From IMG/VR virus record IMGVR_UViG_3300021139_000197, positions 1 to 20,409 of that record: a DNA stretch of 20,409 nt, one strand, 5' to 3'. Origin of the DNA: a virus. Below the pieces are notes generated by a model. It did not search any database, was not told the DNA's origin, and saw nothing but the letters and a program-made list of their open reading frames with translations. Made by a program: the position numbers and the translations under genes. Each line of letters begins with the position of its first letter. Position 1 is the first letter of the stretch. Shown piece after piece: positions 1,386 through 17,554 of this stretch.

Positions 1386-4340
1386 TTATAACTCCGCACT
1401 AAATCCGAGATAACCGCTTGTTGTGCCTTTGGTGTAAGCCCAAACCACAGTTCCAGAAAATCCAGACCCGCCAAATGCAAGTTCGGATTGATCTTTGCCG
1501 CTTCCGTTAGGTTGAAAAGCAATCGTGCTAGGTGTTTGGTCTGCACCAAAAGCAGAGAAAGCAACATTTGACCAATCAATAGTTCCTGATGGGGCTACTC
1601 TCATTGTTACTGGATGCTTTACGATAATAAAAGCATTTGTTGAACCTGTAACATAACCAGAACCTAAAATTTGATAGGGTTGGTCGCCGCCTTGTCGCCA
1701 GTAGTACCTTTGGCAAGCCGCTAACTCCCCCTGAAGTGTGCCAGTAGCAGTTGTGAATGGGGTGGCTACTGAGCCTGCTTCTAACTGTACGCCCCAAATG
1801 TCAAAAGTATTTACGCCACCAGCAAGGTTAATATCTATTTCAAGATAAGAACCTGTTCCAATAGTTTTACCTGAAATACTTGGGATTGTGTAAGTACCGT
1901 AAACTCTTGTCCAGTTGCTTGAAATGGTTGCGCTACCGATTGGTGTAAATCCAACTGCGCCAGAACCACCGCTACCAAAGTTCTGATACATATTTGAGCC
2001 ACCAAAAGAGGTGGTAGTGGATGACCTAATCCAGAATGAATAAGTAATAGTTTGACCTGCAAAAACCCTTACATCTTCAATTCTTTGTTGCATCAATACA
2101 TAAGTATTTCCTGTACCAGCAGCGGTTGTTGCTATACGAAGGAAAGTTCCAGATTCATAACCTGTTGGGCTATTTCCTGGAGTCATAACTTGCTGAGATA
2201 CAGTTCTTGTTGCTCCCGAACCGTCATAACCGATTAACCAACGGTCAAGCGTATAACTGGCTGAAGCGGGGTTGCTGAAAGTAGTACCGCGCTGCGCTAT
2301 TGCGAAATCACCGTTTAGAATTTTATTACGGCCAGCCAAGAATGATGGGCCAGACCAAGACACTCCACCACCAGCAGAAGAGTTTGCCACGAGTGTTGAC
2401 CCGTCAGCGCCTACGTTTAAGGTGCCTACGGTGCTGGCACCAGTGCCTAGAGCTAGATCGCCTTTGGCGGTATAGGTAGATAGTGGTACAGCATTGGCTA
2501 CGCTAAAGGCTGTGAAGGCTAGTACTACAAGAACATCGCCAGCGACTAACGCGGTAAGTCCAGTAATGCTTGAGCCAGTTGAAGCTGTGTAGTCGACGTT
2601 GCGTACTAGGAGTACGCCGTTGACATAGACCTGCTCAAAGCCTACTGCGTAGGCAAGAGTAGCGCTGTTATCGTCAGCACCGGACTTGGAGGTTTCACCT
2701 CCCGTCGCTGTGTAGCGGTACATAGTAATGTTAGCCGTGGCAGTTATGACTGTCCAAGCTGTTCCATTCCATACATACATGGTGTTGTTAGATGAGTTCC
2801 AGTATTCGGCTCCGGTTGCTAGGGCACCACCTTGATTGTTTAAGGTAGGCGGTGACGATTTAGCACCCAGATACTTTTGATCGATACTGGTAAAGGATGA
2901 GGCTGATGATGTAGCTGAGGTAGCGGCTGCAGTTGCCGATGCTGCTGCTGATGTAGCAGAAGTAGATGCTGCGGTAGCAGATGCTGCAGCGGATGTAGCT
3001 GATGTAGCAGCAGCCGTTGCTTGTGCAGCAGCTCCTGAGTAAGCACCGCCAGCTCCAGTTGCCGAGATGGATGCAGAGTTGGCATAGCCAGATGCAGAGG
3101 TAGCGCTAGCAGCAGCAGAGGTAGCAGAAGTAGCAGCACTGTTTGCGCTAGTTGCTGCAGCAGTAGCGGAAGCAGCAGCGCTGGTTGCTGATGTAGCAGC
3201 AGCAGCCACGCTAGCCGTCATGGATGCTGCAGAAGCAGCAGCGCTAGAAGCGCTGGTTGCAGCTGAAGCAGCCGATGTGGCAGCAGCAGATGTGTAGGAA
3301 GCAGCAAGTGTGGCAGAAGCAGCAGCAGAAGTTGCCGATGTTGCAGCGCTTGCAGCAGAAGTTGTGATGGTTGCTACCGAGTTAGCAGCAGTAGTAGCAC
3401 TGGCTGCAGCAGCGGTGGCTGAGTTAGCAGCGGAAGTAGCACTGGTTTGCACTGAACTAAGGTATGTAGCAGCACTAGTAGCACTGGTAGCAGCAGATGC
3501 AGCTGAAGTTGCTGCAGCCGTTGCAGAGGCGGCAGCAGACGTTGCTGAAGTTGCAGCAGCAGTCTGGCTTACGAGGGCGCTAGAGGCGCTTGTAGCCGCG
3601 CTAGCAGCGCTTGTAGAGGCAGCTGTAGCAGATCCTAGGATTGCATCTACATAACTCTTAGGAGTAGCAGATGAGGTAGACATGCCTGCAGAAGACAAGC
3701 CAGTGATGACCGGTGTGCCACCGATTGTAGGGCTGGTCAAGGTCTTGTTTGTCAAGGTTTGGGTAGCGCTGTCAAGGATCACTGTGCCTGAAGTATTAGG
3801 CAGGGTGATGGTGTTGTCCTGTGTCGGATCAACTACGCCAAGGAATGTCTGGTTGCTATCTACTGTAGAACCTTCAAAGGAAATACCTGAGTCAGCCTCA
3901 GCAGTAGAGGTGAGGATAGGGGAAATAAGAGTCTTGTTGTAAAGAGTCTGGGTATCTTGGGTACCTACGACAGCCGATGTGTTGCCTAGACCGTGTACTC
4001 CCATGGTAGCGACTTCGTGGGTGTTAGCCTCACGTAGGTCACGACCGATAACCATGTGACGGACAACGGCACCAGCTGAGTGATCCTGTGCTGTGGACCC
4101 ATCTACTGCACGAGTGATTGTGATGTTATTGCCAGAGACGGCAGTAATATCTACAATTTCTTCAAGTGATGTATCTGGATCGATAACAATGGTAAAGGTT
4201 TGACCCGCTGAGATTGTTACTCCACCAAGCAAGGTAGTCGCTGAGTTAACAGAGGCTACCGTAGCTGTATCGATAAGAGTAGATGAAAGAGTGGTCTGTT
4301 GGGACCGCGAGGAGTACTTACGAGGTGTCTGGGCTGTCAT
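1386..4340 (-). CDS. 984-aa tail fibre protein
   Basis: This is the receptor-binding fibre. Residues 15-100 are an N-terminal beta module (EEIVDITAVSGNNITITRAV, then STAQDHSAGAVV), probably the virion attachment end. Residues about 130-215 contain two copies of a QTL-x-NKTL-x-SP motif common in phage fibres. Residues about 237-480 are a long Ala/Ser/Thr repeat of the lambda-side-fibre type, which probably forms a trimeric shaft. Residues 480-660 include EYWNSSNNTMYVWNGTAWTV and further beta segments. The C-terminal 320 residues begin with GRNKILNGDFAIAQRGTTF, include YTLDRWLIGYDG, VQLEAGSVATPF and ELAACQRYYW, and end FSAEL. This is a jelly-roll-like tip domain widespread in phage fibres. The start at 4340 follows TAAGGTAGACG. 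It is followed by a small accessory gene and then by a separate second copy of the tip domain. Confidence 0.88.
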   Translation of the reverse strand: MTAQTPRKYSSRSQQTTLSSTLIDTATVASVNSATTLLGGVTISAGQTFTIVIDPDTSLEEIVDITAVSGNNITITRAVDGSTAQDHSAGAVVRHMVIGRDLREANTHEVATMGVHGLGNTSAVVGTQDTQTLYNKTLISPILTSTAEADSGISFEGSTVDSNQTFLGVVDPTQDNTITLPNTSGTVILDSATQTLTNKTLTSPTIGGTPVITGLSSAGMSTSSATPKSYVDAILGSATAASTSAASAATSASSALVSQTAAATSATSAAASATAAATSAASAATSATSAATYLSSVQTSATSAANSATAAAASATTAANSVATITTSAASAATSATSAAASATLAASYTSAAATSAASAATSASSAAASAASMTASVAAAATSATSAAASATAAATSANSAATSATSAAASATSASGYANSASISATGAGGAYSGAAAQATAAATSATSAAASATAASTSATSAAASATAAATSATSSASSFTSIDQKYLGAKSSPPTLNNQGGALATGAEYWNSSNNTMYVWNGTAWTVITATANITMYRYTATGGETSKSGADDNSATLAYAVGFEQVYVNGVLLVRNVDYTASTGSSITGLTALVAGDVLVVLAFTAFSVANAVPLSTYTAKGDLALGTGASTVGTLNVGADGSTLVANSSAGGGVSWSGPSFLAGRNKILNGDFAIAQRGTTFSNPASASYTLDRWLIGYDGSGATRTVSQQVMTPGNSPTGYESGTFLRIATTAAGTGNTYVLMQQRIEDVRVFAGQTITYSFWIRSSTTTSFGGSNMYQNFGSGGSGAVGFTPIGSATISSNWTRVYGTYTIPSISGKTIGTGSYLEIDINLAGGVNTFDIWGVQLEAGSVATPFTTATGTLQGELAACQRYYWRQGGDQPYQILGSGYVTGSTNAFIIVKHPVTMRVAPSGTIDWSNVAFSAFGADQTPSTIAFQPNGSGKDQSELAFGGSGFSGTVVWAYTKGTTSGYLGFSAEL
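2900..3632 (-). repeat. Ala/Ser/Thr-coding repeat tract in the tail fibre shaft
   Basis: About 730 bases of imperfect short repeats rich in GCA, GCT and GCC codons, encoding runs such as AATSATSAAASATAA within fibre residues about 237-480. Repeats of this kind are known in lambda-Stf-like fibres and can change length by recombination. Because of the repeat, other frames on both strands stay open here and give false Ala-rich and Leu-rich reading frames. Confidence 0.85.
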
Positions 4341-6168: not shown

Positions 6169-6687
6169 TTATACTGCTCCTACTTCCTTAAAGACTTCTA
6201 CTGATTTTTCATTGATGTAAGCTGCTTTAGGCATAGTTTCGCCGTCATAAGGTTTATTGAGAACCTCCGACGCTTGGATAGCTTTTTCGATAGCAGCGGT
6301 GCTGGTACCTTCGGGCTTAATACCTTGGCGTCTAGCGTCTCGGTATTTATCCAATTCTTTGTCCCACTTCTTTTGAGTGGTGCCAGATTCGATGATGTGA
6401 CCTGCAGCATCACCCGTGGCTAGTTCAAGTGTCTTGATCTTGCAACCGAAGCATCCATCCACAAAGGACTTATGACCGTCATGCTCGGTAACTTGATCTG
6501 GTTCCCTGAAAGGAACCAATGATGTTTCATCGCATTTTGTGCATCCGTAAAGGGATACTTTCTGCTTCATGTCTCCATCTATAAGGTCGTACTGCCATTT
6601 CAAGACCTTGCTAACATGACTATGAGGTGTAAGGCCATTCGTTGATTGGGATGATGTAGTCCCCGTACCCCGCTGCTGTGAGCTCAT
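6169..6687 (-). CDS. 172-aa protein with paired CxxC zinc-ribbon-like motif
   Basis: Two CxxC pairs, C49-x2-C52 (GCTKC) and C79-x2-C82 (GCFGC), are separated by 26 residues that include H69 and H72. This is a good candidate for one structural zinc site. Residues 105-145 are helical and charged (KKWDKELDKYRDARRQGIKP, then IEKAIQASEVLN). I recall the combination of FVDGCFGCK with an ELDxYRxARxQGxxPxGT segment from actinophage proteins of unknown function encoded after the capsid gene. The N-terminal 25 residues are Ser/Thr/Gln-rich and probably flexible. It is one of two adjacent genes with clustered cysteines, in a window whose other proteins are nearly Cys-free. It may be a head completion or connector-associated protein, or a non-structural DNA-binding protein. 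The stop is directly followed by the ATG of the next gene (TAAATG). Confidence 0.75.
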   Translation of the reverse strand: MSSQQRGTGTTSSQSTNGLTPHSHVSKVLKWQYDLIDGDMKQKVSLYGCTKCDETSLVPFREPDQVTEHDGHKSFVDGCFGCKIKTLELATGDAAGHIIESGTTQKKWDKELDKYRDARRQGIKPEGTSTAAIEKAIQASEVLNKPYDGETMPKAAYINEKSVEVFKEVGAV

Positions 6688-6901
6688 TTGCTATCTCCTG
6701 ATTGATGACGTTCTTATATCCGCCCCATAGGACGTAATCGGCTGCGCCAGTCTGATCTTCGGTGGGGTAACGAATCTCAGTCCAGACGTTGTTCTGTCTT
6801 AAAAGTGTGATACCGCGGTCTAGGCGAAAGCGGATAAACAATCGTCCGCCACCGGCTGGACCTTCGGAGGTCGTAGGACCAGTGAAGTAATACTGAGTCA
6901 T
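6620..6901 (-). CDS. Small head-tail-region protein after the capsid gene
   Basis: A 93-residue protein, mostly beta with aromatic residues: an N-terminal YYFTGPTTSEG, then GGRLFIRFRLDRGITLL, VWTEIRYPTEDQTGAADYVL and a GGYKNVIN segment. Small proteins of this type, with a Y-x-G-G motif after an aromatic strand, follow the capsid gene in many actinophages and are usually left as hypothetical. A capsid-decorating or connector role is possible. The ATG at 6901 follows AAGGAG on the minus strand. The last 68 bases overlap the start of the next gene in another frame. It has no Cys. I cannot name a function from sequence alone. Confidence 0.7.
   Translation of the reverse strand: MTQYYFTGPTTSEGPAGGGRLFIRFRLDRGITLLRQNNVWTEIRYPTEDQTGAADYVLWGGYKNVINQEIANELTAAGYGDYIIPINEWPYTS
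6695..6699 (-). promoter_or_regulatory. Ribosome binding site deciding the start of the 172-aa gene
   Basis: AGGAG on the minus strand, seven bases from ATG 6687. It lies inside the 93-aa gene and supports a start that creates a 68-base overlap between the two genes. The next in-frame ATG (residue 40) would remove the overlap. Confidence 0.6.
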
Positions 6902-6986: not shown

Positions 6987-8177
6987 TTACACGTAGTCAA
7001 TGCTTGATGATGATTCGACACGGTAAAGTGACTCTTGACGATAGATCGCCCAGCCGCCTACTCCGTACCAACCAAGTGGACGCTGACGCATCAACTTATC
7101 AACGACCGGACCGATCACAACGTGGAATTCTTCGGCTACGGCTTCAGACAGAGCTTGCTGTCCTGCGAAGTAGGTGTTGAATACCTTTGTGACTGGTGTT
7201 ACGGTTACTGTTGCACCTGATGTGACACCAGCTGATGTGACAGCGTTAGATAGTGTCCAGATGAGTCCTGTTGCATCGATTGCTGTAACAGTTGTAGAAG
7301 CAGCAATACCTGTAGCAGCAACCTGATCTCCGACGTTGATTGACAACGCACCGGAAGTTGATGATGTTACAGCGATTGTTGTAGCACCTGAAGCAGCTGA
7401 TGTTGAAGTAGCTGTTGTCCAAGTAGACTGTGTAGCACCTGTCTTAGCTGAAAACATACGAGGTGACTCGATGTAGTACGCACCTTCGTACGAACCAATT
7501 TCGCCAGCCCAGATCTCATCTGCAGCTTGGTACTCGTGTGGCTGACGCCATGATCCAACGCCTGTTTCAGAGCGGAGATCAAGGGCAACCTCTGGGTGGA
7601 TGTACGCAGCGTACATGTTACCCTTGCGAGGAATTGCCTTGTTTGTGCGTAGCTTAGCTGTGACCTTACGGGCAGTAGCTGAGTTAAATGTTGAAGAAGA
7701 AGTCAATGAAGCAGTTGATGTAGCTGATCCCGGACGAAGTACGTTTGTACCTGCAGCGAGAACATTCTGAGCAACTGTATCGATCGAGTCTGCCATGTTG
7801 AACGCGATGATGTTAGCGATAGCTGGATCTACGTCAGCAAGGCTGAAGAGTTCCAACGCACGTGTTACGAGCACTGCGTTACCATACTCGGCAAGAGTAA
7901 TGGTTGTGTATGTTGGTGTAGCGAGCGCTACTGCATCCGGATCAACTGTCTCTGTGAGAGAGTTGGTCTGTTGTGTCAAGTCAACGTAACGTTGCAATAC
8001 AACAGATGAGCCCGGGATGCTTTGACGTGCTGGTGTCTTATCCGCAATGTTACGGATAAGAGGTTGAGCACGGAGCTGGAATTCGATAAGGCGATCATAC
8101 GCCTTCTGAACTAAACCAGCACTTCCGACTGTACCGCCAAGACTGGTCGAGCCAGTATTTGTATAAGCGTTAGCCAT
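6987..8177 (-). CDS. Major capsid protein, N4-gp56-like, with inserted beta-rich domain
   Basis: A 396-residue protein that forms the shell. The N-terminal half carries the pattern I associate with N4-gp56-type coat proteins: AYDRLIEFQLRAQPLIRNIA (26-45), the extended-loop-like SSVVLQRYVDL (57-67), SLTETVDPDAVALATPTYTT (73-92), AEYGNAVLVTRALELFSLAD (96-115) and NMADSIDTVAQNV (127-139). Further on come YAAYIHPEVALDLR (189-202), EIGSYEGAYYIESPR (226-240) and the C-terminal VIGPVVDKLMRQRPLGWYG. Between about residues 245 and 330 lies a Ser/Thr/Ala/Val-rich insert (TTIAVTSSTSG, NVGDQVAATGIAASTTVTAI, TLSNAVTSAGV) that looks like a separate beta domain, probably displayed on the capsid surface. The gene has the best ribosome binding site seen here and is followed by a terminator-like hairpin. 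It contains no Cys. The fold class (HK97) follows from established knowledge of the family. Confidence 0.88.
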   Translation of the reverse strand: MANAYTNTGSTSLGGTVGSAGLVQKAYDRLIEFQLRAQPLIRNIADKTPARQSIPGSSVVLQRYVDLTQQTNSLTETVDPDAVALATPTYTTITLAEYGNAVLVTRALELFSLADVDPAIANIIAFNMADSIDTVAQNVLAAGTNVLRPGSATSTASLTSSSTFNSATARKVTAKLRTNKAIPRKGNMYAAYIHPEVALDLRSETGVGSWRQPHEYQAADEIWAGEIGSYEGAYYIESPRMFSAKTGATQSTWTTATSTSAASGATTIAVTSSTSGALSINVGDQVAATGIAASTTVTAIDATGLIWTLSNAVTSAGVTSGATVTVTPVTKVFNTYFAGQQALSEAVAEEFHVVIGPVVDKLMRQRPLGWYGVGGWAIYRQESLYRVESSSSIDYV

Positions 8178-11211: not shown

Positions 11212-12176
11212 TATACTCCTGCCATATTAGATGTGGCTAGCTTCTGCATCATGTCGAATGCAGTACCAGCTGCGGTGTAGGCGTTGTATTCACCTGATTG
11301 GCGAATCGAATTCTCTACGAATTGGTTCTCAGTAAGGTCATTGCTTGTTGAGTTGTAGGTCTGACCAGACTTAACACGGGATACTGTTCCGCTAGTTGGG
11401 TTAGTAGCCGGGGTATAGCTGGTAGAACCCGTCTCATTCATGGTTGGGTTAGCAGCGGCATACTTGAGGTATGCGTTGCCATAAGCAGCCAGTTCTTGAT
11501 CACTAGCCTTGCGTCCCATGAACTGAAGGAATAGATCGTTAACCACGTTATTGCTAGCCACGACGTTAGGCTGATCACGGCTGACACGGCTGTAAGTGCT
11601 GTTAGCAAAGTAAGGGCTAGAAGCAATGGAATCTTGCTGTCCCATAAATGCTCTAATGTCTACAGGAGCACCTTGGCTAAGACCAGATGTAGGGTTGCTA
11701 GCCTGTTGCATAGCCCCTTGAAGGGCTGTTGCATCGGCTGTAGTGAACTTAGAACCTAGCTTGAGTTGGTAGTTCTTGATGCCAGCAGCATCGTAGTAAC
11801 CGCCAGCTGCTGCGTTCGTACGCAGAGCATCAGCCATGTTCTGGTTAGCTGACAAGAATAAAGAAGCCATGTAGGTAAGACCGTCAACTGTAGATGGCAA
11901 AGGCTTACCATCTGATCCAACCATTGTCTTGCCGTTAGGCATCTTGGTTGGGTATTGAGCTGTCTTCCAAGCATTGGTAGCTGAAGTCGTTGTACCTGTG
12001 GTAATAACACCACCAGTATCTGCAGCAAGACCTGCAGGAGCAGTGCCTGTTGTAGTTGTCTGGGTGTTTCCTGTGGTAGTGGTTTGGCTACTGCCACCCA
12101 TAGTACCGGGACCAAGACCTAACGCTCCAGCAGCTTTGGTATCTGTAGTAGCTGAACTACGAGCAAATTTAGCCAT
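11211..12176 (-). CDS. 321-aa structural-type protein with GR-x-AS motif
   Basis: Residues 1-70 are a low-complexity Thr/Gly/Ala leader with repeats such as TTTTGNTQTTTTGT, probably flexible. Residues about 211-243 hold NDLFLQFMGRKASDQELAAY, a pattern (F-x-x-GR-x-AS-x-x-E) shared by a group of actinophage proteins and loosely like DUF4214-type repeats. The C-terminus (about 285-315) has NQFVENSIRQSGEYNAY and then an amphipathic helix, which resembles the C-terminal end of the following 346-aa protein. There is no Cys. The gene is joined by TAATG overlaps to the giant gene before it (12176) and to the 346-aa gene after it (11211), so the products are probably made together and act together. 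A virion or ejection component is the likeliest role. No enzymatic motif is seen. Confidence 0.8.
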   Translation of the reverse strand: MAKFARSSATTDTKAAGALGLGPGTMGGSSQTTTTGNTQTTTTGTAPAGLAADTGGVITTGTTTSATNAWKTAQYPTKMPNGKTMVGSDGKPLPSTVDGLTYMASLFLSANQNMADALRTNAAAGGYYDAAGIKNYQLKLGSKFTTADATALQGAMQQASNPTSGLSQGAPVDIRAFMGQQDSIASSPYFANSTYSRVSRDQPNVVASNNVVNDLFLQFMGRKASDQELAAYGNAYLKYAAANPTMNETGSTSYTPATNPTSGTVSRVKSGQTYNSTSNDLTENQFVENSIRQSGEYNAYTAAGTAFDMMQKLATSNMAGV

Positions 12177-15100
12177 TACTTCACTTCCTCAATAGGTCCA
12201 AAAGTAGATTGATAGAACTTCTTGTAGAAGCCCAAGAAACGCGGATCGGCTTTAGATGTAGGCGTTCCCATGGCAATCGCCACTGCCTTATCACGCATCT
12301 TCTGAGTATCAGCAGCCACTGTGTTGATGTCCTTGGTTGTATTGATCTTATTTAGGACTACGGTTGCTTGATCAAAGAATGATTGATAGTTGGCATAGTT
12401 CCAGTCGTTAGACTGATCCAAGCGGTTCATTGTCTTGGTAAGAGCATCATTCTTTAGTTCATAACCAGCTGTGCTTCCGCCAGCTTCATAAGCTGGATAG
12501 AGCAAACCAGCGTACTTCTCAATACTTGAAGCATTGATTTTAAGGTTTTCGATTGTACGTGGAATGTAGGTTCCAGCTGGAAGTGCTTGAGCCCATGTCA
12601 ACTTACGGCTAATAGCCGGAGCCAAGTAAGACTTAGCCAAGGTAACAAAGTCAAGACCTTGCTGAACTTGTCCTAGATCGCTAGTCGTGTTTGAGTAGTT
12701 AATAGCACGACGAGGAGGATTCTTGAAGATGTCAGAGTTAACAAAGTTAGCGAAATGCTGTGCTTCGTTAAGGATCTTAAGCCATCCGGCTTGTGCCGTT
12801 TCTGGCAAAGTTCCCTGACCCCATACGTTCTGACCAGTCTCTGGGTTGTAACCCACAAGCAAAGCGTTCAACTCTGACCATGCTGGAATCAAGCCCTTAA
12901 GGAGCTTGGTAGCCTGTGAAGCGTTATCAGAGGTAATAGCCTGCGGCGCGAACATGTTCAAGATGGTGTTGATGTACTGAGAGTTAATACCACCAAACTG
13001 TCCTAGACCAATTCCATGGTCAAGGGCGTTCAGTTGCTTAAGCTCTGTAATCAAAGCAAAGTTCTTATCTAGCCAGTTACCGATAGCGTTGTTTTTATTG
13101 AAGGCAAATTCATGCCCATCAATCTTGACGCCATGCTGATATACCTGTAAAGCCTGATTAAGGATTGCTGCTTTACCTGTGTTATCTAGGATGTAACCAC
13201 CGATGTTGCGGTAGAGAGTCTTGTTAAATGAGAATGGATAGAAGACTGTAGCGATGCTCTTCTCAAAGGCGGTACGATCTCCGTAGCCGTTGATTTTCTC
13301 AAGTTTGCCAGCAATCTCTTCGTCGCTAAGACCCATCTCTTTGAGATGTTGGGCTTGCCACATCATGCTGTGCAAAGGATTGTAGAAGTTGAAGATGTCA
13401 CTTTTAGCCAATGTGCCGTCAAGCTCACTAGCGCCAGACATCTTGCTACCAAATTCCTCTGGGATCAAGCGCTTGGTAAGATCAAATGCATCCTGCAAGC
13501 GACCTGTACGCATCAAAGATAGGTAAGGGTTAGCAGTCGCAGGGATGCCTTCTAAGGCAGCCTTAAGGTTAGTCTTAACCATACGACGGATACCAAATAG
13601 TGGGTTCAGATCAAAGCGGAACTTATCGCGTAGAGCGATCATGTTCTGTCCTAGACCAGCTGTGGCATCAAAAAGACCCCAACGAGCTGAAGATTCTCCA
13701 GCAGGTAGCGCTGTCTTACCCATGAATGACATAGCACCCTTGGCAATACCAGCGGTAGAAGCACGAAGTACATCTTCAACTTTACCTAAGCCTACGTAAG
13801 TAGCCTTCATCTTTGCATCAGATGCAAGGATATGGGTGATAACCGCGTTAGCTGTAGCACGATCCATCAAAGGAAGTTCGTATCCAAGCTTGCTATCTGG
13901 GTTGATAGGCTGCATGAGGATCTTGCGCATGCTTGCAGTGCTGAGATTGTTGACAGTAGTCTCAGCGCTTTTAGCAAGCTGAGCCTTAGTGCGCTGTTCT
14001 GCACGAGCTGTCTCAATTGCAGTTTCATCGCCAGAAGCGAGAAGCTCTGCATTGGCAGGATCTTCATTAAATATCTTGTCGGTCATAGGTGTAGCGCGGT
14101 TGTAAACAACGCTGAGTGCACGCTTAGGAATGGTCATCGCATCTTGGAAGATGTGACCTACTTTACCTAGCTTTGCACCTTCTTTAGCCGCACCTTGTGA
14201 GAGCAGGTTCAGTACATCGCGTCCGTTCATATTGAACGGTAGCTTTGTTCCTGTCTTCAAAAGCCATTCATCGATAGCCGCTGCGCGTTGAGCACGGCGT
14301 ACTTCAAAGACGTTAGTGTCCTTGATAGCATCCATGCCTAGACCTAAGCCACGGGCTGCATTACGGATAGCGTTGTTGTTGTCTTCGACAACGTGTGGAG
14401 GAATGATCGACTTCTCATAGGCATGACCGATGCCGGTACCTAGAGCTGGACGCCATCCATGAGCCTTAACAGCCTCCCAAGCATCATGTGCTTCCTGAGG
14501 AGCGTTATCAAGAAGAGATGCCTCTGAAGCCTGTGTTTGTGAGCGCTTCCAAAGTGCGTACATCATCTGGATTGGATCTTCTAGAAGAGATACTGTCTTA
14601 GGAGACATACCTAGCTTCTCGGCAAGAGCCTGACCTTGCTTCCAGATTTCATGTTCTTTACCACCGATAGGCATAGGTTGCAGAGCATGAGGAGCCACTT
14701 CTGGGGCTACGTTATTTCTAGCTTCCATCTCAATAGTTGAGAACATGTTAGCTACTTCTTGGTCGTGACCAAGCTTTGAGTATTTGCTAGCCATCTTGCG
14801 TACAGCGTTCTGGATGTCTTGTTGAGTCTGGTATTCCGGACCAACAAATCCAAGCTGTCCACGTCCCACAACGTTATTGTGGAAGATAGTGCTAGGCATA
14901 AAGCTATCTTTGGCAAGTGCTGGATCTACGCGTACCTTGACAGCAGTGGCTGCTTCAGGCTTAATAACATGAAGGGTCTTGCCATCCTTGTTCATGTACT
15001 TGAAACCAGAGGATTCAGTCTTGCTCATCGCATCGCGTGTTACTGCAGCGATACGCTGATCTACTTGCTGCTTGTTAAGCTTGCCAGCAGCTGTAAGCGC

Positions 15101-17554
15101 TGTGCGGTAAGCATCAAGGACTTCTTGTCCTGTGTAGTTAAAGTCATCTTTGAGAGCCTTACGAAGCTGCTCATAGCCCTTTGATACCTTGCCCGGGATA
15201 GCACCCTTTTCAAGATAACGAAGAGTATTGGGAGTATCTCCCGGTTCCATAACGCCTAGCTCATCAAGAGCCTTATTGATGTCACCTGAACGACCCATGT
15301 TGCTGCCGATAACTTCTTTGATCGCATCAGCAATGGCATTGCTTTCGCCACGCTTGTTAAGATCTAAGATCTTGGCTGATGCCCCCGAAGGAGACACATG
15401 AGTAAGGTTGTAGGTATTCTTCTTAGAGCGGCCTACCCAGTTGGTGTCATCTGTAGCCTTGATACCAGAACCGTAAGGTCCATTCTCGCTAAGCATCCAT
15501 GTCTCAGGAGCGTGGTCATCTACCTTGTCATTGAGGTGATAGAGAGCCTTGGTATTAGCAGTGTTATCAAAAGTAGGGTTCTTGTTCATGTCAGCGGCTA
15601 AGCGCTCGCTGCGTAGGTCTTCAGCCTTGGTTACAGCACTGGACCCGAAGACAAACTTCTTGTTCTCTTCTTTGAGGAGAGTCTCAAGATCTGAACGCAA
15701 AGCGGCAATCTTCTGACGAGCTGCGATCCACTTCTCTTTACCGGCTTTGCCAGTCTTGAATTCAGGTAGAACTTCGCCAGTAGCCTTCTTGTCAAGGTAG
15801 TCGAAGTTTTCCTTCATAAAATGGGTGATCATGTCATTGGATTGACCAATAAATGAGTTGCGAGCAAAGTTGGCAATGTGATCTTCTGAGTATGCATCTT
15901 CTGCGTACTTCTGACCAGCCTTGAAGTAGTCATCTGTACCTGCTTCAAACTTGCCATCTTTAACATCTTGAGCAAGTCGAGTCTCAGCGTAGTGATAAGC
16001 AGCGCCTTTATTGAGGTACTCGTTGTAGATGTTGGTAGCTTCAGTCTGACCAAAGGCTTCAGTCATGTCTTTGACAGACAATCCTGTAGCTTGCTTGAAA
16101 GCATCGCCTACGCCTGCGGTAGCAAGGCTATCCTTGAGAGGAGTAAGAGCTCCTTCAATAAAGTTACCTGCGTGAACAGAGCCAGCATTGCCCATGAAAT
16201 GTCCACCAGCAGACATGCTGATTGCATTCAAGGCTTGTCCAAGCATGCCTGAGTAAGGTGCTTGGTGTGCTAGATCATAAGTAGCGGGTGTCCCACCGCT
16301 AAGCTTGTCTTCAGCTTCGCTGATAGCAAGGCTTTTGATGCCTGTGCTGAATCCTTGAGATGCCAATGCGTTGGTAACTTGGCGAGCAGGGATACGGCTA
16401 AGAGAAGCAATAGTGTTTTTAAGCACTGCATACTTGCTACCTTCGGTAGGCAATTTAGCAATCAAAGGTAATAGGTTGCGAGCACCGGGAACTCCGTTAA
16501 GGAGGTTCAATACACCGGAGCCTTCAGCGCCTTTAGCAGCATCTGGAGCAGCATTGTAAAGCCATTTAACGAAACCAAAGCGTGGAGTAGCAGAAAACTC
16601 TTCAGGCAAGCTACGAGTAATCATAGATTGAGGCTCAGTAGCAGTCTTCTTGACAAGGGCTGCAACTTTTTGAGCAACGTTAGCGTCCTCAGGGACACTT
16701 CCCTTAATCATTCCGCCAGCTACGTTCTTGACAACGCCAGAAACGCCAAGTGCACCGTCAATGACGGATGCAAACTGGAACATGTTTCCGATGTCAGCGA
16801 TAGAACGACGTGTCATTCCTTGCTGCATAACTTGTTCTGTGGTGGTATTGCCACCAAGATCGTTTTCGATACGGGCTACGTTGGCTGCTTGGTTCTCGTC
16901 AGGAGAACTTCCGTGGCCTACGCCGAAATCGTTCATAATAGAACCAGCTTGGTCAGCCATAATCTGGCGTCCAGCACGTCCTAGGTTCTCTACCCAACCG
17001 ACTATCTGAGGCGCTACCTTAGCTAGGCTAGCTTCTCCGAGAAGTGGGGAGATGATCTTCATGGCAGATACGTTGCCAAAGCCGGGAACGTTGAATTGAT
17101 CGTTCGCTAAACGGCGTAGTTCATTTGTCCATGATGAAGTCCAGTTACCCTTAACCAAAGGTTGTCCTGTATTAGGGTCAATACCGTAACCTTTAAGCTG
17201 CATGCTAGCCTGAACATCGTTGATGTTCGAGGTAACTACAGGTGGGTGTGAATACTGGTTATGAGCCCATGATAGAGCCTTCTGAATAGGCGTCTCAACT
17301 GCATGAAGCAAAGGATCTGAAAGGAATGTAGAGCCTTCTAAAGGCTTTGTCATCATTGCTAACTTCATTGTGTCAGCGTTGGTAGCCATGTTCTGAGTGC
17401 TACCACCAGCAGGGCTGGCTACGTGAGCAGCAAGAATTGGGTCCATCCACTGTGTGTGACCTAGAGCAGCAAGAGTATTGATACGATCGCCAACAAGATC
17501 CGCTGAAGGATTACCTGATGGTGATACCGGAGGCAATGGAGTTACATCAGACAT
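12176..17554 (-). CDS. Giant 1792-residue virion-associated protein, possibly internal/ejection protein
   Basis: At 1792 residues this gene takes up over a quarter of the window. It is alpha-helical in character. Near the N-terminus is MQLKGYGIDPNTGQPL, which faintly recalls a peptidoglycan-binding repeat. A charged, possibly coiled-coil stretch lies at about 590-660 (KWIAARQKIAALRSDLETLL), a helical segment with SPKTVSLLEDPIQMMYALWK near 990, and an aromatic segment FYPFSFNKTLYRNIGGY near 1440. I read the whole translation and found no Cys. I found no T7-type RNA polymerase motif, no lytic transglycosylase motif, no helicase P-loop and no HExxH metalloprotease motif. It is not obviously a tape measure: it lies before the capsid gene and no tail-tube genes are present. 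The best guess is a large internal virion protein ejected with the DNA, comparable in logic to T7 gp16, but no homology is claimed. The ATG at 17554 follows GGGGT, and the gene ends in a TAATG overlap with the 321-aa gene. Confidence 0.9.
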   Translation of the reverse strand: MSDVTPLPPVSPSGNPSADLVGDRINTLAALGHTQWMDPILAAHVASPAGGSTQNMATNADTMKLAMMTKPLEGSTFLSDPLLHAVETPIQKALSWAHNQYSHPPVVTSNINDVQASMQLKGYGIDPNTGQPLVKGNWTSSWTNELRRLANDQFNVPGFGNVSAMKIISPLLGEASLAKVAPQIVGWVENLGRAGRQIMADQAGSIMNDFGVGHGSSPDENQAANVARIENDLGGNTTTEQVMQQGMTRRSIADIGNMFQFASVIDGALGVSGVVKNVAGGMIKGSVPEDANVAQKVAALVKKTATEPQSMITRSLPEEFSATPRFGFVKWLYNAAPDAAKGAEGSGVLNLLNGVPGARNLLPLIAKLPTEGSKYAVLKNTIASLSRIPARQVTNALASQGFSTGIKSLAISEAEDKLSGGTPATYDLAHQAPYSGMLGQALNAISMSAGGHFMGNAGSVHAGNFIEGALTPLKDSLATAGVGDAFKQATGLSVKDMTEAFGQTEATNIYNEYLNKGAAYHYAETRLAQDVKDGKFEAGTDDYFKAGQKYAEDAYSEDHIANFARNSFIGQSNDMITHFMKENFDYLDKKATGEVLPEFKTGKAGKEKWIAARQKIAALRSDLETLLKEENKKFVFGSSAVTKAEDLRSERLAADMNKNPTFDNTANTKALYHLNDKVDDHAPETWMLSENGPYGSGIKATDDTNWVGRSKKNTYNLTHVSPSGASAKILDLNKRGESNAIADAIKEVIGSNMGRSGDINKALDELGVMEPGDTPNTLRYLEKGAIPGKVSKGYEQLRKALKDDFNYTGQEVLDAYRTALTAAGKLNKQQVDQRIAAVTRDAMSKTESSGFKYMNKDGKTLHVIKPEAATAVKVRVDPALAKDSFMPSTIFHNNVVGRGQLGFVGPEYQTQQDIQNAVRKMASKYSKLGHDQEVANMFSTIEMEARNNVAPEVAPHALQPMPIGGKEHEIWKQGQALAEKLGMSPKTVSLLEDPIQMMYALWKRSQTQASEASLLDNAPQEAHDAWEAVKAHGWRPALGTGIGHAYEKSIIPPHVVEDNNNAIRNAARGLGLGMDAIKDTNVFEVRRAQRAAAIDEWLLKTGTKLPFNMNGRDVLNLLSQGAAKEGAKLGKVGHIFQDAMTIPKRALSVVYNRATPMTDKIFNEDPANAELLASGDETAIETARAEQRTKAQLAKSAETTVNNLSTASMRKILMQPINPDSKLGYELPLMDRATANAVITHILASDAKMKATYVGLGKVEDVLRASTAGIAKGAMSFMGKTALPAGESSARWGLFDATAGLGQNMIALRDKFRFDLNPLFGIRRMVKTNLKAALEGIPATANPYLSLMRTGRLQDAFDLTKRLIPEEFGSKMSGASELDGTLAKSDIFNFYNPLHSMMWQAQHLKEMGLSDEEIAGKLEKINGYGDRTAFEKSIATVFYPFSFNKTLYRNIGGYILDNTGKAAILNQALQVYQHGVKIDGHEFAFNKNNAIGNWLDKNFALITELKQLNALDHGIGLGQFGGINSQYINTILNMFAPQAITSDNASQATKLLKGLIPAWSELNALLVGYNPETGQNVWGQGTLPETAQAGWLKILNEAQHFANFVNSDIFKNPPRRAINYSNTTSDLGQVQQGLDFVTLAKSYLAPAISRKLTWAQALPAGTYIPRTIENLKINASSIEKYAGLLYPAYEAGGSTAGYELKNDALTKTMNRLDQSNDWNYANYQSFFDQATVVLNKINTTKDINTVAADTQKMRDKAVAIAMGTPTSKADPRFLGFYKKFYQSTFGPIEEVK

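Follow-up and report, generated by a model that had tools for sequence, protein, structure and literature searches.

What is the beta-rich stretch that interrupts the coat protein of this virus, and does it belong to the core of the shell or has it been added to it? The window, that is, the whole stretch of DNA that was analysed, is a virus record of 20,409 bases. An earlier note had described a Ser/Thr/Ala/Val-rich beta-domain between an otherwise typical coat core and its C-terminal part, and had pointed to repeats more usual in fibres and adhesins. The observation is confirmed here, while its interpretation is partly supported. We put at roughly two in three the probability that the stretch is an exchangeable, outward-facing barrel of the I-domain type in a coat of the N4-gp56 family.

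The protein that carries it is an N4-gp56-family coat protein with the HK97 fold:

6987..8177, minus strand: major capsid protein, N4-gp56 family, 396 aa (TIGR04387, phrog_1357, PF13252, 9e99_A)

It scores 107.7 bits against TIGR04387, for which the curated cut-off is 60, and it matches phrog_1357 (major head protein, E 3e-77) and PF13252 of Pfam (E 5.7e-7). The TIGR04387 match covers residues 42-262 and therefore ends within the start of the insert. When the AlphaFold2 model of the whole coat is compared with the PDB, N4-like coats rank first; the resemblance to the N4 capsid chain 9e99_A (Foldseek E 1.2e-10; Z 16.8 over 248 residues) is that of an HK97 fold like N4 gp56, at an overall sequence identity of 19%.

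Other genes of the window can be noted in passing. Two fibre-like proteins (211-1209 and 1386-4340) have a common C-terminal region (34% identity over 256 residues of the shorter, E 5e-26), which suggests duplicated ends; the second of them, with 984 residues, has a long Ala/Ser/Thr-rich repetitive stretch. The product of 4349-5272 matches the SU10 adaptor over residues 99-256, just under the cut-off, and a small stretch preceding this match fits tail-protein PHROGs. The frame at 12176-17554 (1792 residues) has no Pfam match at E 0.1; as a guess, it could encode a large virion or ejection protein. As to the host, none of 31 pattern matches in bacterial genome contigs is related to the coat.

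Within the coat, the insert, its leading part and its conserved borders are placed as follows:

7467..7502, minus strand: conserved A-domain stretch before the insert, residues 226-237 (G228, Y230, E231 and G232 invariant; N4 alignment)
7188..7445, minus strand: inserted beta-barrel, very probably of the I-domain type, with its leading linker, residues 245-330 (absence in relatives, AlphaFold2, P22 profile match)
7380..7445, minus strand: Ser/Thr/Ala-rich, nearly uncharged entry linker and first strand, residues 245-266 (composition; profile alignment)
7164..7184, minus strand: conserved A-domain strand after the insert, residues 332-338 (strand in the AlphaFold2 model; conservation)

Both peptides quoted in the earlier note, VGDQVAATGIAASTTVTAI and TLSNAV, are found in the translation of the 396-residue frame, and residues 245-330 correspond to 7188-7445, at most one base away from the 7187-7445 given there. 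The compositional bias is real: Ser, Thr, Ala, Val and Gly make up 79% of residues 245-330 as against 45% elsewhere in the coat, and the maximum over all 86-residue spans of residues 1-243 is 56%. Only three of the 86 residues are charged, K245 being the sole one in the entry linker. On the upstream side, G228, Y230, E231 and G232 are unchanged across 70 aligned coats; on the downstream side, residues 332-338 are kept in insert-bearing and insert-less relatives alike.

Alignment with N4-gp56-type coats, a check that the earlier note had proposed, finds the segment present in some relatives and absent in others. In a tblastn search with the coat, 54 of 50,697 phage records match. Coverage of the query is 80% or more in two of them, both ct2KA10 (61%), whereas the matches of 29 Streptomyces phage records fall into two pieces that span 66-72% of it. 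Both intact Streptomyces-phage coats that were read out (L083 and L085) lack the segment, and have at its site IETPR, about 12 residues and then a VYNTYFTGQQAL-like strand. In the Streptomyces phage JXY1 (L084), the coat is split into two annotated genes, and the frame read here stops early.

A set of 320 coat frames was assembled from the window's own locus, 310 loci of five IMG/VR searches and nine phage records, with redundancy between the searches left in. The insert profile is matched by 162 of them, a different insert at the same site by nine, and neither by 149, numbers that are counts and not frequencies, three of the searches having used, among others, insert peptides. Of the last group, L294 carries a long insert that is unassigned, and the frames of L084 and L258 stop upstream of the site. 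Profile matches were used for these counts because a first regex count of insert lengths had left 53 of 245 loci unparsed; alignment-based inspection of the site covered 99 of the 320 coats. Search by search, the insert is present in all of the best 80 of 214 IMG/VR relatives of the window and in all of the best 80 of 595 relatives of ct2KA10, and in none of the best 80 of 241 relatives of Stella. In a group of gut phages, five coats (L250-L254) carry an insert at the A-domain site and three (L255-L257) do not, although the best segment of the latter matches L250 at 85-86% identity. Similarity of these gut-phage inserts to the insert of the window was not found (E 0.39), nor was similarity to P22. 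Residues 245-330, approximately, are thus a genuine insert, absent in Streptomyces-phage coats and in most sampled distant coats.

Structure prediction, also proposed in the earlier note, yields a confident six-stranded beta-barrel. In the AlphaFold2 model of the whole coat, made from a 70-sequence alignment, residues 241-340 stand in blocks of pLDDT 84-92 and the insert has six strands; the mean is 65.5, residues 1-37, 46-117 and 346-373 fall below 50, and the N-arm and E-loop of the core are poorly modelled. Modelled alone, the insert reaches a mean pLDDT of 88.6 and a pTM of 0.76, with the same six strands. The predicted strands, each seen in the whole coat and in the domain alone, are:

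7407..7421, minus strand: predicted strand 1, residues 253-257
7368..7379, minus strand: predicted strand 2, residues 267-270
7314..7325, minus strand: predicted strand 3, residues 285-288
7278..7292, minus strand: predicted strand 4, residues 296-300
7251..7262, minus strand: predicted strand 5, residues 306-309
7197..7211, minus strand: predicted strand 6, residues 323-327

The six-stranded barrel that characterizes P22-type I-domains is therefore predicted in both models. A segment that is absent from many relatives, that is predicted to be a barrel and that lies outside the HK97 core agrees with the idea of an extra beta-domain between the core and the C-terminal part of the coat; the converse, that all relatives have the segment as part of their core HK97 fold, was examined and does not hold.

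The best structural match of the domain is the tail tube of phage Mystique (9n71; E 5.7e-3, Z 9.7 over 83 residues, 4.5 Å, 25% identity). Next come the Chi tail tip (Z 8.3), the LKA1 tailspike (Z 8.2), a chain of 124 residues from a Bridgette structure (Z 7.5, 31% identity) and a VP1 capsid chain (Z 7.2), and then, at Z near 6, ATP synthase barrels, with the proviso that a Z under about 8 may reflect no more than a common arrangement. The Bridgette chain may be a capsid cement protein. No Foldseek match of the domain in the PDB reaches E 0.001, and P22 is not among the 50 structural matches listed for the domain alone. Against viral predictions, the list is headed by tail proteins and by phage proteins that are uncharacterised, the best at E 2.9e-4, and it includes one HK97 coat (7e-3). 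Similar barrels do occur in a tail tube, a tail tip and a tailspike, but an origin from fibre or adhesin repeats is not supported, the best-supported profile relative being the P22-type I-domain of other coat proteins (see below). Neither does the insert appear to be Ig-like: over residues 242-335, no family of Pfam, whether Ig-like or other, is matched at E up to 10, in a search in which the HMMER filters drop most weak matches.

The site of the insert on the shell can be approached through N4. Residues 296 and 327 of N4 gp56 align with residues 240 and 332 of the coat, and the conserved residues 226-237 align just ahead of the N4 loop 300-328, which is described as part of an outer-surface protrusion in the solved capsid (PMC11768535). 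Because of this alignment and the outward direction of the N4 loop, the insert would, by homology, replace an outer-surface loop. It probably faces outwards, in line with the shell-decorating position suggested in the earlier note, and one copy of the domain per coat subunit would stand on the outer shell.

The LKA1 barrel, six-stranded as well, was matched by its authors to the P22 coat I-domain (PMC5701251), and the I-domains of P22 and CUS-3 are reported to be six-stranded barrels (PMC11243222). For these reasons, the insert was compared with P22 at the level of profiles. Reported borders in the P22 coat are 128-221 for the A-domain, 222-345 for the I-domain, 346-357 again for the A-domain and 358-416 for the P-domain (PMC9965877). 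With hhalign, the insert alignment (58 sequences) matches ten P22-type coats at E 2.7e-4 for a single comparison (probability 42%), over P22 residues 257-310, inside the I-domain. The score of 32.2 is reached by none of 300 column shuffles (mean 11.0, sd 2.0, maximum 19.7), and reversed insert controls score 11.7 and 10.7. Since 219 of the 300 shuffles landed on the same P22 region, it is the score, and not the location, that counts as evidence. The whole coat aligns collinearly with the P22 coats (residues 22-294 with P22 8-281, E 3.5e-4, probability 37%), and the insert is therefore placed at the P22 I-domain position; together with the P22 borders, this corresponds to an insertion in the A-domain before the strand that returns to the P-domain. 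Under other settings the alignment shrinks to residues 22-96 (E 8e-4), and for a divergent set of N4-gp56 coats, most of them without the insert, the comparison with P22 yields E 0.12.

Being upstream of the P22-aligned stretch, the entry linker 245-266 lies roughly at the position of the P22 D-loop. A charged D-loop clasp is not found in it, given the charge content described above; D-loops of other P22-type coats vary too. Because the charged D-loop is missing, the label "I-domain-type" is used rather than that of a full P22 I-domain. With this restriction, the insert is very probably, in identity and in site, an autonomous six-stranded barrel of the P22 I-domain type at an outward loop site of an N4-gp56 coat.

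Searches with the insert by itself had a modest yield. Among the sequences of solved structures, neither the insert nor its profile found anything beyond chance-like matches (best E 0.021 and 0.37), and tblastn with the insert alone gave nothing at E 1 among phages; with the inserts of two relatives, one gave nothing and the other three weak matches. Single inserts match two PHROGs at E 0.01, phrog_10467 in 23 of 58 and phrog_5838 in 11 of 58, the window's own matching none; these links were given no weight, as composition may help them. When the insert profile was run against other genes, at E up to 10 and with coats set aside by a crude motif filter, two non-coat frames matched: the first lies in L020 (E 3.7e-4), the second, which is adaptor-like, in L019 (E 0.07). 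The former (L020:6203-6694) directly follows the coat gene and resembles, by eye, window 6620-6901; the match lies in an extra C-terminal stretch, and a search with it found only its own contig.

The kinship with P22 raises the question of whether the insert might be ancestral to P22-like and N4-gp56 coats, and lost in several lineages rather than gained later. P22-type coats have the same site and a related profile, as would be expected from such a history, but most sampled N4-gp56 coats outside the groups of the window and of ct2KA10 lack the insert, N4 included, and other same-site inserts have no detectable similarity to that of the window or to P22. Judged by presence and absence among the sampled coats, ancestry followed by loss seems unlikely.

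Where the insert occurs, it is the variable part of the coat. Mean identity to the window over 81 rows, of which the window's own locus (L001) is one, is 0.78-0.93 in the core regions and 0.58 in residues 245-330. Median omega is 0.36 in the insert as against 0.11 in the core, for 364 non-independent pairs chosen by a core dS of 0.05-0.8. The insert is thus constrained, but less so than the core.

Furthermore, insert and core differ in history to a greater extent than core segments differ from one another. Two sets supplied 161 insert-bearing coats, that of the window included, and identities were compared for 157 of them (short, X-bearing or unreadable ones were dropped, and L082 was not given); trees were built from 89 of the 157 after dereplication. 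Over pairs of the 157, the correlation of core and insert identity has an r of 0.59; when a core segment is set against the remaining core, r is 0.84-0.91. Insert and core trees have three of 86 splits in common, and the five core segments 14-27 of 86. When the insert is constrained to the tree of the remaining core, 1538 log units are lost; for core segments, the loss is 187-383. In the AU test the core tree is rejected for the insert (p 1e-23), but the rest-of-core tree is likewise rejected for each of the five core segments (p 1.8e-4 or less), so that recombination in the coat gene, or misfit of the model, is not confined to the insert.

Single pairs depart in both directions. In one pair (L028/L080), core identity is 97.7% and insert identity 41.8%; two others are 79.1 and 77.6% identical in the core and 98.8 and 95.5% in the insert (L179/L217 and L170/L213, respectively). 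Nucleotide identity shifts at the insert borders: in L028/L080 it is 0.84-1.00 in core bins and 0.68, 0.46 and 0.54 in the insert, in L179/L217 it is 0.66-0.81 in the core and 0.85-0.89 in the insert, and between L008 and the window it is 97.2 and 99.0% in the flanks and 80.6% in the insert. Pairs with less than 82% identity in the rest and at least 95% in the segment number 15 of 8062 for the insert; for the five core segments they number 12 of 8730, 62 of 8411 and none in the other three, the two segments concerned being slow ones. Divergence at four-fold degenerate sites is higher in the insert (0.21) than in the core (0.12-0.16) in the closest identity bin (283 pairs), and falls within the core range in the other three bins.

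These observations could be accounted for by recombination through the conserved flanks, by which the domain would move between coat genes as a cassette. That the insert is such an exchangeable cassette is likely, though not proven. Rapid evolution of an exposed domain, without any recombination, would also produce some of the pattern: omega is about three times that of the core, much of the conflict consists of low insert identity combined with high core identity, core segments are mutually discordant as well, and the four-fold excess is absent in three of four identity bins. It would not, however, be expected to give nearly identical inserts in the divergent cores of L179/L217 and L170/L213, nor nucleotide identities that drop or rise at the insert borders, nor far fewer shared splits and a lower correlation than in any core segment. 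We regard rapid evolution alone as quite unlikely, and exchange of the domain as the better reading.

As to function, the domain would mainly be a replaceable surface module that contacts cells, other particles or the medium weakly, rather than a P22-like ionic clasp; this role is suggested because some relatives do without the domain and because it is almost uncharged and fast-changing. A role in surface contact is put forward tentatively. A strong rival, if on the whole a rather doubtful one, is a barrel that chiefly serves as a stabilizing clamp, contacting neighbouring coat subunits and strengthening the shell or setting its size. The D-loop of the P22 I-domain is reported to make ionic contacts across two-fold axes, and the loss of these contacts leads to aberrant particles (PMC9962691). 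In the tail tube of YSD1, inserted domain 2 latches neighbouring subunits (PMC7385642), and the Mystique tube, which provides the best match of the insert, is reported to be structurally homologous to that of YSD1 (PMC12013898); the matched domain may thus correspond to YSD1 domain 2. The match to the Bridgette chain would point the same way if that chain were the dimeric capsid cement protein that this phage has (PMC13033339). Uncharged surfaces, moreover, could still clamp. A P22-style salt-bridge clasp is nevertheless unlikely in view of the uncharged Ser/Thr linker and the few charged residues of the insert, in which a counterpart of the charged D-loop is missing. The clamp is also at odds with an insert that changes faster than any other part of the coat and that related coats lack, for contacts between subunits are expected to keep residues constant. 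A surface module accounts better than a clamp for a domain that is optional, lies at an outward site, changes fast and is probably exchanged.

A further alternative, and an improbable one, is that the barrel helps its own coat chain to fold or guides assembly, and does little once the particle is complete. It is suggested by P22, in which 10 of 18 temperature-sensitive folding substitutions of the coat are reported to fall in the I-domain (PMC9965877). Related coats manage without the domain, though, closely similar gut-phage coats occur with and without an unrelated insert at the same site, and one would not expect a domain that served folding alone to be swapped between coats in divergent versions.

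Beta-domains inserted into coats are already known from P22, crAss001 (PMC10172136) and phi29 (named in PMC11768535). An I-domain-type insert in N4-gp56 coats, or its exchange between coats, was not found in the titles and abstract openings of the open-licence literature. It is possible, and no stronger claim is made, that the relatives of this virus carry an I-domain-type barrel on every subunit as a plug-in cassette of the outer face and swap divergent versions of it by recombination. If so, the shell would vary its outer surface by module swapping, as tail fibres do, the P22 I-domain type would extend to a second large family of coats, and the domain would be optional and exchangeable in the N4-gp56 setting. 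Natural pairs with 98% identity in the core and 42% in the insert would then be at hand for testing a coat-borne surface domain, and an outer loop tolerant of insertion would be marked, which would be useful for display.

Several known systems have elements in common with this insert. With N4 gp56, the coat has the family, the variant of the HK97 fold and the position of an outer A-domain loop in common; N4 differs in having the extended loop 300-328 at this site and separate Ig-like gp17 decorations (PMC11768535). The I-domains of P22 gp5 (222-345) and CUS-3 resemble it in their six-stranded barrel, corresponding place in the A-domain and profile, but they are longer (112-129 residues in P22-type I-domains as against about 86) and more charged (7.7-22.6% across ten of them as against 3.5%), whereas the insert has no charged D-loop, resides in a coat of the N4-gp56 family and is variable and probably exchanged. 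The insertion domain of the LKA1 gp49 tailspike (283-370) is likewise a six-stranded barrel, but sits in a beta-helix beside the active site. The domain of the Mystique tail tube that gives the best structural match is external (PMC12013898), but is borne by a tail tube; in the tube of YSD1, inserted domain 2, its presumed counterpart, serves as a latch (PMC7385642). Finally, the I-domain of the PhicrAss001 coat is also a beta-barrel inserted into a coat protein and resembling the P22 I-domain, but it emerges from the E-loop instead of the A-domain (PMC10172136).
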